A DNA stretch of 35,473 nucleotides from NCBI GenBank assembly GCA_027858745.1, contig JAQICB010000053.1, positions 1 to 35,473 of the forward strand, in the 5' to 3' direction. This document shows positions 1,736 to 15,444 of the stretch, one piece after another. Under the pieces are notes generated by a model. It saw only the letters and a list, made by a program, of their open reading frames with translations. It was not told where the DNA came from and ran no database searches. The position numbers were made by a program, and so were the translations under genes. The number at the start of each line of letters is the position of its first letter. Position 1 is the stretch's first letter. The DNA comes from Bacteroidales bacterium (GTDB lineage: Bacteria > Bacteroidota > Bacteroidia > Bacteroidales > UBA1715).

Positions 1736-1797
1736 ATGTTCCATTCCGATTGTGTCGGGACAGGTCATGACCTTTGAAAAGCAATTAAAATAAACAT
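1736..1797 (+). repeat. Hairpin leader repeat, copy 1 (upstream of proC)
   Basis: This element resembles the one at 11574-11628. It has an imperfect hairpin CCGAT-TGT-GTCGG at 1746-1758, then the perfect palindrome GGTCATGACC at 1763-1772, then AATTAAAATAAACAT running into the start codon. The hairpin ends 38-40 bases before the ATG, nearly the same spacing as in copy 2. The remainder of the 158-base gap (1640-1735) is AT-rich and shows nothing else that I can name. Confidence 0.6.
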
Positions 1798-2610
1798 ATG
1801 AATATGAATTTTTCTAAAAAAATAGTAATAATAGGTGGCGGAAATATTGGTATGTCTATTGCTCGCGGTTTGGTTCATTCAAGTGAATTTAGCCCGGAAC
1901 ATATAGTAATTACACGAAAAACGTCAGATTTACCCAAAAATCTACATGAAGAAGGGTTTACCTATACTGATGATAATATATCTGCGGTAGAACAATCTCA
2001 AATTATTATTGTTGCCGTTCTGCCCCAATTGGCGTATTCGATTTTTAAAGAAATTTCGTCTGTTGTTACCGCAAAACATTCACTTATTTCTATTGTTACC
2101 GGTGTTTCAATTACGGAGATAGAAGAGTGTATACATGAGTCTATTTGTATTGCTCGTGCAATGCCAAATACTGCTATTAAGATTCGTGAATCAATGACTT
2201 GTATTGCTTCAAATAACAAGAATTGTCCTGAATTTACCGATATCATTAATTTGTTTGATATGTTAGGTGAAACTTTGGTTATTGATGAATCATTAATTTC
2301 TTCTGCCACCGCACTCGGTTCGTGTGGTATTGCATTCTTTTTACGTTCTATTCGTGCCGCATCTCAAGGAGGTACGCAGATAGGGTTTCACGCAGAAGAT
2401 GCACAGTTGATTGCTGCACAAACCGCAAAAGGAGCAGCCGAATTGTTGTTGCAATTATCATCACATCCGGAAGATGAAATTGATAAAGTAACAACGCCTC
2501 ACGGTATTACTATAGCCGGATTAAATGAAATGGAACATAATGGATTTAGTTCGGCATTTATAAAAGGAATTGTTGAATCGTATACTCAAGCTATTAAAAA
2601 AAATAAATAA
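1798..2610 (+). CDS. proC: Pyrroline-5-carboxylate reductase
   Basis: This 270-residue enzyme performs the last step of proline synthesis, the NAD(P)H-dependent reduction of 1-pyrroline-5-carboxylate to proline, in the cytosol. The N-terminal Rossmann fold shows IIGGGNIG (residues 11-18). The family's RAMPNT motif is present near residue 120. The C-terminal dimer and substrate region carries VTTPHGITIAGL followed by NGFSSAFIKGI. The usual family form is VTSPGGTT, so the H-G-I variant is a small deviation in a loop that normally contacts substrate. The length is typical. Two possible ATGs lie six bases apart (1798 and 1804); I keep the first. A repeat hairpin precedes the gene, and a lipoprotein gene begins 2 bases after its stop, which suggests co-transcription with that gene. 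Confidence 0.93.
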   Translation: MNMNFSKKIVIIGGGNIGMSIARGLVHSSEFSPEHIVITRKTSDLPKNLHEEGFTYTDDNISAVEQSQIIIVAVLPQLAYSIFKEISSVVTAKHSLISIVTGVSITEIEECIHESICIARAMPNTAIKIRESMTCIASNNKNCPEFTDIINLFDMLGETLVIDESLISSATALGSCGIAFFLRSIRAASQGGTQIGFHAEDAQLIAAQTAKGAAELLLQLSSHPEDEIDKVTTPHGITIAGLNEMEHNGFSSAFIKGIVESYTQAIKKNK

Positions 2611-10988: not shown

Positions 10989-11028
10989 AATTGTTCTCAA
11001 TGCGATTGGCATTGAGAACAATTTTTTT
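10989..11028 (+). terminator. Terminator-like hairpin inside the atp operon, after atpE
   Basis: A perfect 15-bp stem pairs 10989-11003 with 11009-11023 around the 5-base loop GATTG (11004-11008). A run of seven T residues follows (11022-11028). This has the full form of an intrinsic terminator. It starts 6 bases after the atpE stop and ends 28 bases before atpF. Because atpFHAG must still be expressed, it probably acts as a partial terminator or as a 3' stabiliser of an atpBE message. Confidence 0.8.
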
Positions 11029-11550: not shown

Positions 11551-11573
11551 CGGAATAAATTAGCATACATGTA

Positions 11574-11628
11574 ACATCCCGACTTTGTCGGGGTAAGTTA
11601 TGACAAATAATGACAATAAAATAAACAT
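11574..11628 (+). repeat. Hairpin leader repeat, copy 2 (upstream of atpH)
   Basis: The hairpin CCCGAC-TTT-GTCGGG (11578-11592) is a perfect 6-bp stem with a 3-base loop. It is followed by GTTATGAC, a near-palindrome in place of GGTCATGACC of copy 1, and by CAATAAAATAAACAT running into the atpH start. The hairpin ends 36 bases before the ATG. It matches copy 1 (1736-1797) in order of parts, spacing and the last dozen bases. Confidence 0.6.
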
Positions 11629-12174
11629 ATGAATCAAAGTCAAATTTCTGTACGATATGCGAAAGCTTTTTTCCATTTATCAGTGGAAAAGAAAAAGCTT
11701 GATGTTGTTATTCCCGATATTCATCTTATGTATAGTGCAATTCAAGATGTCGAAGAGTTAAAGCGTTTGTTGCATAATCCATTAGTGAATCCAAGTGATA
11801 AGAAAAATGTCTTGCATGCATTGTTTAATACCAAAGTATCGCCGGAATCTATCCAATTTTTAAATCTTGTAGTGGAACATTCTCGAGAAGCTTTTTTACA
11901 AGATATGTTACGGAATTTTATTGAGATGTATAGAAAACACTCCGGCATTAAAAAAGTGACAGTGCAAACAGCACATACATTTTCTCAAACTCATATTTCG
12001 GAAGTTACTAAAATAGTTAAGGAATTGTATAAAACAGATATTGAATTTGAGGAAATTGTTGATGAAGAGTTGATAGGTGGTTTTATTCTGCGAATTGACG
12101 ATTTGCAATTTGATGCAAGTATTCAACAACAAATTAAGAATATAAAAAAAGAAATGCTTTTACAAGCTGTATAA
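11629..12174 (+). CDS. atpH: F1Fo ATP synthase subunit delta
   Basis: This 181-residue subunit joins the peripheral stalk to the top of the alpha-beta ring (OSCP equivalent). The N-terminal helical domain begins ISVRYAKAFFHLSVEKKKLD, the standard start of the family. The C-terminal domain contains the conserved region VDEELIGGFILRIDDLQFDAS followed by IQQQIKNIK. Length is usual. It lies 78 bases after atpF, a gap filled by a repeat hairpin, and 30 bases before atpA. The start codon lies within CATATG, as in proC. Confidence 0.94.
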   Translation: MNQSQISVRYAKAFFHLSVEKKKLDVVIPDIHLMYSAIQDVEELKRLLHNPLVNPSDKKNVLHALFNTKVSPESIQFLNLVVEHSREAFLQDMLRNFIEMYRKHSGIKKVTVQTAHTFSQTHISEVTKIVKELYKTDIEFEEIVDEELIGGFILRIDDLQFDASIQQQIKNIKKEMLLQAV

Positions 12175-14685: not shown

Positions 14686-14739
14686 GCATTTTGAGAATAG
14701 TGAGGAGTTATCTTATGATAGTTAAATAATAAAATAAAC

Positions 14740-15444
14740 ATGAAACATGTTCTTCCTCTTTTTTTATTTTTTGTGTTGACCGTTCTTTCATGTACCAAAG
14801 AAACTGCGATTCCCGAAGATACTTCAGATAAATATTATCCCATGCAGCTTGGATATGAATATGTGTATTCTGTTACCTCAATTCGTATTGATAAGCCAAC
14901 TGAAATTTATGATACGGTTCATTATTGGTTGCGACAAAGAGTTACTGATATCATAGTTGATACGCTCGATTATACTACATTTGTTGTTCAACAAGATTCA
15001 TGTGTAGACAGTTCCGGATGGTTTCCAAGTAAAAATATTGCTGTACGTAAGCTCGATAATGAGGTTGTAATGCTCGATAATAATACCGAAACGGTATTGC
15101 TCCGATATCCGATTTCTAGAAACATGTATTGGGATGTAAATATATATAATCTTGGAGATGAGAAGACATATATGTATTCAGATATTGATGTTCCATATCA
15201 GTCAGAGGTTTTTAATAGTGATTCTACCATTGTTGTTGAACAACAGAAATTTGAATCGTTATATTCTTATATTTTTCAAGAGGAACGGTATGCTCGTGGC
15301 GTAGGATTGTGCTCAAAAACAGATATTAATATTGAATCTCAACCAACTCAAGGTACAATTGATTTGAGTTTACCTATTAAAGAACGAATCACGTATGGTT
15401 ATATGAAAACATATTCATTAATTTCATATTCTCTTGTGGAATGA
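14740..15444 (+). CDS. Hypothetical lipoprotein
   Basis: The 234-residue product has a short signal sequence ending in the lipobox LTVLSC, with lipidated Cys18. The mature part starts with an acidic linker (TKETAIPEDTSD) and then KYYPMQLGYEYVYSV, a motif often seen in Bacteroidota lipoproteins that fold into a beta domain. Aromatic and beta-branched residues dominate the rest, with no recognisable catalytic motif. The end overlaps the next gene by four bases (ATGA at 15441-15444), so the two proteins are translationally coupled and probably made in fixed ratio. It may be an accessory or anchor for the esterase that follows; this is inference from coupling only. Its upstream gap ends in AATAAAATAAAC before the ATG, as atpH does. 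Confidence 0.8.
   Translation: MKHVLPLFLFFVLTVLSCTKETAIPEDTSDKYYPMQLGYEYVYSVTSIRIDKPTEIYDTVHYWLRQRVTDIIVDTLDYTTFVVQQDSCVDSSGWFPSKNIAVRKLDNEVVMLDNNTETVLLRYPISRNMYWDVNIYNLGDEKTYMYSDIDVPYQSEVFNSDSTIVVEQQKFESLYSYIFQEERYARGVGLCSKTDINIESQPTQGTIDLSLPIKERITYGYMKTYSLISYSLVE

Follow-up and report, generated by a model that had tools for sequence, protein, structure and literature searches.

A short hairpin element, probably mobile, that adjoins ATGAA in Bacteroidales genomes

In the 35,473-nt stretch of Bacteroidales DNA analysed here (the window), proC and atpH share a leader that is probably a copy of a short non-autonomous mobile element of Bacteroidales, inserting 5′ of ATGAA in one orientation (TTCAT on the other strand). 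A hairpin element has been inserted repeatedly and site-specifically. Its mobility is supported by conserved ends, covariation of its hairpin P1, identical copies, arrays, adjoining ATGAA and element-free sites in relatives. Insertion 5′ of ATGAA would explain why the genes behind the copies share no pathway.

The leaders of proC and atpH

An earlier note on this DNA had described a hairpin leader common to the two genes, and the parts that it listed are in place. Ahead of proC, CCGAT-TGT-GTCGG (1746–1758) is followed by GGTCATGACC (1763–1772), AATTAAAATAAACAT and the ATG at 1798; ahead of atpH, CCCGAC-TTT-GTCGGG (11578–11592) is followed by GTTATGAC (11597–11604), AATAAAATAAACAT and the ATG at 11629. 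The spacing from hairpin to ATG is likewise as described, with 39 bases at proC versus 36 at atpH. The extent given for the proC leader, 1736–1797, captures the 3′ half of the element and misses the 5′ half (1682–1735).

We searched with three covariance models: R1, built from five 3′ halves; R2, built from the 5′ part without the tail (13 training members from this genome); and R3, a broader model with training copies from G000, G109, G154, G225, G227, G270 and G307. The proC copy, a full-length element of 116 nt on the forward strand (1682–1797), scores 89.1 bits with R3 as a training member of that model, and the match extends into the start codon (1682–1801). Its 5′ end ATGAAACATTCATGATA (1682–1698) is the 5′ arm of P1, and the 3′ arm ATTATGGATGTTCCAT (1729–1744) contains the conserved GTTCCAT; both assignments draw on P1 covariation across genomes. 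A second, optional hairpin P2 (1744–1760), which is missing in some copies and has other sequences elsewhere, is followed by the palindrome GGTCATGACC, where the five R1 copies of this genome have TyATGAC in common. An A-rich tail ending in AATAAACAT (1773–1797) adjoins the start codon of proC (pyrroline-5-carboxylate reductase, 1798–2610, forward strand; TIGR00112, E = 1.9e-59, above the cut-off). The 5′ half of this copy, which was not used in R1, recurs in other copies.

Between atpF and atpH, the element lacks its 5′ part (11563–11628, forward strand; 82.9 bits with R1, as a training member). R3 matches 11569–11632 only, at E = 0.069. Its P2 hairpin lies at 11576–11594, and atpH itself (F1 subunit delta, 11629–12174, forward strand), like proC, had been named correctly; comparison with relatives marks its ATGAA start as native. 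Elsewhere in the atp cluster, a long inverted repeat with 15-bp arms and a following T run (10989–11023) stands between a small c-subunit-like open reading frame (ORF) and atpF, and looks like an internal terminator or attenuator. At 14700–14742, GTTATCTTATGATAGT...AATAAAATAAAC occurs directly 5′ of ATGAAACATG, ahead of an ORF at 14740–15444; this may be a strongly decayed copy of the element, and R3 gives no match there.

The check that the earlier note had proposed, a search with the hairpin pattern CCCGACNNNGTCGGG (at most one mismatch), returned only the atpH copy and a place on contig C166. The latter is also a real copy, but the exact pattern proved too strict because the hairpin sequence differs from copy to copy. 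Looser patterns, based on the bases after the hairpin or on the tail, gave further copies in this genome, each about equally far from a start codon. The string AAAATAAACATATG occurs 11 times in the genome versus 0 times for a reversed-pattern control, and the resemblance of the two leaders is thus beyond chance.

Copies in this genome and in relatives

In the genome of the window, R1 gave 34 matches at E ≤ 10 and 9 at E ≤ 1e-3, four of the latter outside the training set. The region upstream of the R1 matches, unused in that model, is also common to the copies (ATGAAACATCCATGATA...GATTATCTCATGGATGT). R2 gave 14 matches at E ≤ 1e-3, consisting of its 13 training members and a new one before panC; a weaker R2 match precedes purE. 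Together the two models mark 16 places at E ≤ 1e-3, training members included, and at 14 of these an ORF longer than 160 amino acids has its ATG precisely at the 3′ end of the copy. At the panC copy the start lies 8 nt further on, and the copy on contig C124 has no ORF behind it. The dispersed repeat that the earlier note had offered as one option is thereby borne out, with many copies and a majority whose 3′ end is at a start codon. The genes behind them include proC, atpH and lpxB, and others that from their translations appear lptE-, trigger-factor-, hemD-, lysC-, pyrB- and mqnB-like.

Recovery in other genomes varied with the model. Under strict filters R1 had no match at E ≤ 0.01 in 59 relatives. 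R2 matched 9 of 393 genomes, its own included; 7 of the 8 new loci are clear by eye, and the copies in G111 are clear. With R3 in sensitive mode (E ≤ 0.1), 18 of 40 genomes matched, again including the window's own, and 17 of the 39 others had at least 1–44 matches each. The 40 included the window's own genome and eight that had been selected for their R2 matches; of the other 31, which were not preselected, 9 match, 6 of them four or more times. Up to 91 candidates were scored per genome, so the counts are lower bounds: at least 44 in G225, 40 in G154, 33 in G111, 32 in G041, 29 in G307, 23 in G370, 20 in G270, 13 each in the window's own genome and G227, and at least 1–10 in the others, with none in 22. 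In the window's own family, G002 has one member that is clear by eye. Three copies of 106 nt at unrelated places of G225 are identical, which marks them as recent copies.

Searches of plasmids and phages by blastn gave no element match. A copy was seen on a viral contig (L306:8771–8865, IMG/VR contig IMGVR_UViG_3300039008_000327; 59.5 bits), directly before a phage-like gene that lies upstream of a tape-measure-like ORF, and phages may therefore ferry the element between hosts. G227 (L311:13995–14118, contig C43) also holds a repeat of another kind, some 124 nt long, whose ends (GTCCAAAAAGT...ACTTTTTGGA) look like inverted repeats; 29 further places are listed for it in the same genome.

Anatomy of the element

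The anatomy was read from 57 single copies, mostly top-scoring matches; 60 regions had been fetched, and three arrays were set aside. As read from these copies, the element is a unit of about 90–150 nt with conserved ends. The 5′ end is ATGAAA in 54 of the 57 (consensus start ATGAAA(C/T)), and the P1 arms enclose an internal loop of variable length, often with ACACACA...GATGATTAT. The 3′ arm of P1 ends in (G/A)TTCC; the optional P2, whose sequence differs between lineages, lies between TTCCA and TGAC. In most copies the A-rich tail ends in AAACA(G/T/C), and ATGAA follows. A mini-ORF at the 5′ end (ATG AAA CAT CCA TGA) is common, and is not claimed as a conserved feature since many copies have lost it (ATG to ATA) or carry a longer version. 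In G225, three loci (L225, L223 and L220) hold composite elements, with GC-rich REP-like palindromes nested in the hairpin loop, that stand in arrays of two or three units.

The arms of P1 vary by lineage and keep their complementarity (CATCC/GGATG, CCTCC/GGAGG, TGCGCAT/ATGCGCA and TACCCATGA/TCATGGGTA). Across 16 diverse copies, picked for their simple arms, 96.4% of cells are paired and 23 cells carry two-sided changes, each value being reached in 0 of 500 shuffles. Two-sided change affects 5 of the 12 pairs, a number reached by 9 of 500 shuffles; the number of further pair types in the same 16 copies does not exceed that of the shuffles (404 of 500). With the 3′ arm assigned by a fixed rule, which left out 2 of 76 elements, own arms fold at −10.5 versus −7.2 kcal/mol for swapped arms (38 representatives; 0 of 20,000 permutations). 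The same test on the 15 representatives of this genome alone was not significant (1,210 of 20,000), and other tests within it gave p = 0.084 and no covariation. P1 is therefore strongly supported as a selected structure across genomes, and unsupported as one within this genome. At the DNA level, neither strand clearly forms the more stable hairpin, the bottom strand doing so in 22 of 46 cases.

The insertion site

At their right ends, 55 of the 57 copies adjoin ATGAA, one ATAAA and one AGGAA. The A that follows ATG lies inside our models and the fifth base outside them, which makes the fifth base a cleaner test of a target than the Met-Lys/Asn start: it is A in all 55 copies that have ATGA at the right end, compared with 85 of 147 background ATGA starts. 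The search for genes covered the sequence 3′ of the copies. Of the 57, 41 directly precede the ATG that opens an ORF of 50 amino acids or more; another 14 are at an ATGAA with a shorter ORF (in some cases the next copy), and 2 have no ATG. When weaker matches of this genome are included, 63 of 67 genes behind copies begin with MK or MN, compared with ATGAA starts at 85 of 281 ORFs in 400 kb of G225.

Start codons are used beyond the supply of the motif. Copies at a start codon and at other ATGAA stand at 41:12, the 12 being a hand tally that sets aside 2 arrays and 2 near-starts, versus 106:207 for the sites available; the motif alone therefore does not explain the placement. The excess may reflect accessibility of the target, or survival of insertions thanks to the open tail. 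In an unbiased sample, the same 400 kb of G225, a gene start directly follows 4 of 9 tails, another copy follows 2, and neither follows the remaining 3. Neighbouring copies in head-to-tail arrays overlap by ATGA.

Sites without the element in relatives

The gap between atpF and atpH, counted from sequences, is 9–27 nt, with no element, in all 12 family genomes examined (G007 being left out), versus 78 nt here, and atpH in those 12 relatives begins ATGAA(T/C)CA(A/G)AGT. Three named relatives with the same gene upstream of proC (L068–L070) also lack the element there, with no R3 match. One insertion in G227 lies at the edge of conserved non-coding DNA, ahead of a gene that we take to be mraZ-like. 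Of 5 other genomes in the genus, 4 contain the flank of this site, none with the element; its left flank does not align. At the site itself one of the four reads GTGAA and three read ATGTA, never ATGAA, so an ancestral ATGAA target is assumed. This non-coding insertion shows that a start codon is not required.

How the element might move and persist

ATGAA, which encodes Met-Lys/Asn, is a frequent gene start, and insertions would for that reason often land between a gene's own 5′ untranslated region (UTR) and its start codon. They would be tolerated because the A-rich tail would form an open translation-initiation region, and old copies, such as those at proC and atpH, would persist as leaders. 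Less surely, an HUH enzyme of the IS200/IS605 type, supplied in trans, might move the element as single-stranded DNA; the motif at the foot of P1, GTTCCAT (ATGGAAC on the other strand), would then pair both with TTTCAT, the end of the element itself, and with TTCAT, the target. Among 54 copies with the motif, base 7 of the foot is complementary to the base that precedes TTC in 53 (44 C–G and 9 T–A), with one mismatch; 3 further copies lack the motif. The pairing suggests that the motif could also pair with the target, as IS200/IS605 guides do.

A stronger version, in which the element homes to start codons, with the foot pairing with ATGAA and guiding insertion before Met-Lys/Asn genes and the tail supplying the open initiation region, is conceivable, although we lean against it. 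If it were true, one invasion would rewire the 5′ UTRs of dozens of unrelated genes and break none of them.

The likeness to IS200/IS605 derivatives (HUH, Y1) lies in the hairpin, the lack of visible terminal inverted repeats, the single orientation to a short target and the possible guide-type pairing of the target with the hairpin foot. Members of that group insert 3′ of a particular tetra- or pentanucleotide, and here TTCAT (ATGAA) stands at 55 of 57 right ends. The principle of guide and target pairing is set out in PMC6006769. Unlike those derivatives, the element has one long hairpin and an optional second one rather than subterminal hairpins at both ends, is linked to no Y1 gene, has ATGAA/TTCAT as its target and is placed at start codons.

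We found no convincingly linked transposase or RAYT (REP-associated tyrosine transposase). Y1 transposase genes are present in 33 of the 40 genomes, with and without the element alike, and 33 Y1 loci taken from a longer list had no element within the fetched flanks. Around weak Y1 matches, 20 further loci contain three element matches at E < 0.05, in two loci, and no gene bounded by the element on both sides. Two of the three are in L346, where one overlaps, on the opposite strand, a broken RAYT-like frame and the other follows a second frame at a distance of about 465 nt; the third, in L357, is about 1 kb from a RAYT frame. Nor was an autonomous copy seen in the 400 kb of G225, where 7 of the 9 tails have a head within 230 nt and none was recognised for the other two.

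Alternative readings

The same mobile element could be moved by a different enzyme, by cut-and-paste with a 5-bp ATGAA duplication, by a site-specific recombinase with an ATGAA core or by an RNA-based route. This possibility overlaps the main reading, and we rate it as rather unlikely. ATGAA stands on both sides of 52 of the 57 copies, an arrangement that either a duplication or a crossover core would produce, and target duplication and fixed ends are for this reason indistinguishable. By eye, however, there are no terminal inverted repeats, the ends ATGAAAC... and ...AAACAG not being inverted repeats of one another. Moreover, two copies have ATGAA on the left and not on the right, which later mutation can explain, and three show the reverse.

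If the copies formed a family of RNA leaders regulating in cis, akin to riboswitches or thermometers, that had been duplicated and retained for translational control of the genes behind it, this would account for the majority of copies at start codons and for the covariation of P1. It would also suit the more open initiation region, with a mean unpaired value of 0.675 for 12 G225 copies, which are not independent, versus 0.510 for 235 other genes. The gene lpxB has a copy exactly at its start codon in three families (L025, L221 and L243, in G000, G225 and G111), each with lineage-specific sequence. However, no common pathway is visible among the 67 genes behind copies, as the earlier note had remarked for proC and atpH, and sequence comparison of these genes groups only lpxB and, weakly, an epimerase-like pair. 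Some copies stand before another copy or before non-coding ATGAA, the element is missing at orthologous sites of relatives, P2 is optional and lineage-specific in sequence, and P1 pairing is not significant in the window's own genome. We consider such a family distinctly unlikely. For the mobile element itself, a leader acting on mRNA in cis, the other option in the earlier note, is plausible, as the position and the open A-rich tail would both allow it; neither regulation nor the tuning of atpH relative to atpF that the note had suggested is needed for the pattern. Work on F. johnsoniae (PMC6847099) names secondary structure and an A at −3 as factors on which initiation in this phylum depends; the element's tail, though open and A-rich, has C at −3.

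The earlier note had also raised a REP/RAYT origin, with the hairpin as a REP moved by a RAYT, and this we now hold to be highly improbable. Short palindromic repeats in many copies outside genes are common to both, and the P2 hairpins are REP-like, optional and different between lineages. In PMC6006769, a Bacteroidetes RAYT subclass, 2.6, is described as having atypical structures on its flanks, further copies of which occur elsewhere in the genome, and the overlap with a broken RAYT-like frame in L346 points the same way. Yet the unit is 90–150 nt long with its own ends and its own insertion target, none of the 33 Y1 loci has the element, and nine RAYT genes are flanked, by eye, by other palindromes. 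Nor does the whole unit, by eye, resemble a 20–40-nt palindrome with a GTAG or CGTC tag; its ends are ATGAAA...AAACA(G/T/C). Bacteroidetes-type RAYT genes (NHxH, YIHxNP) were seen at L345–L362, several per genome in some, with palindromes of their own.

That A-rich Bacteroidetes translation starts are merely alike, through chance or convergence, would fit those of the 11 AAAATAAACATATG occurrences that precede leaders without hairpins (for example, L017 and L020), but is refuted by the conserved 90–150-nt units, the arrays, the covariation and the identical copies, and we give it practically no weight.

Relation to known elements and meaning

We file the mobile element as a new variant among small non-autonomous mobile elements. 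By eye it lacks the terminal inverted repeats of a classical MITE (DDE). HEARO (Rfam RF02033), which is associated with IscB, is said to adjoin ATGA/GTGA, a statement not found in the literature searched; the element is much shorter, and eight element loci searched gave no RF02033 match. BrickBuilt, a MITE of Porphyromonas gingivalis, is also a multicopy small intergenic element in a Bacteroidales species; it differs in its 23-nt repeats, its terminal inverted repeats and its distance of 49–591 nt from genes, as given in PMC4596501, the main text of which does not contain ‘ATGAA’ as the start of a word. Rfam gave no match at gathering score in the window and nothing beyond sub-threshold matches at L007; across 8 element loci there was one sub-threshold match, beside an element and not on one. 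Among the open-access matches listed, no title names such an element, and searches with element sequence strings returned only unrelated papers.

If the main reading is right, a mobile element, and not the history of the gene itself, is the source of the 5′ UTR of many genes in these bacteria, and identical leaders on genes without a common pathway would be explained. For a phylum in which Shine–Dalgarno sites are not used, the copies would then amount to a naturally occurring collection of portable leaders, and they would pose the question of which enzyme recognises start codons, and how.
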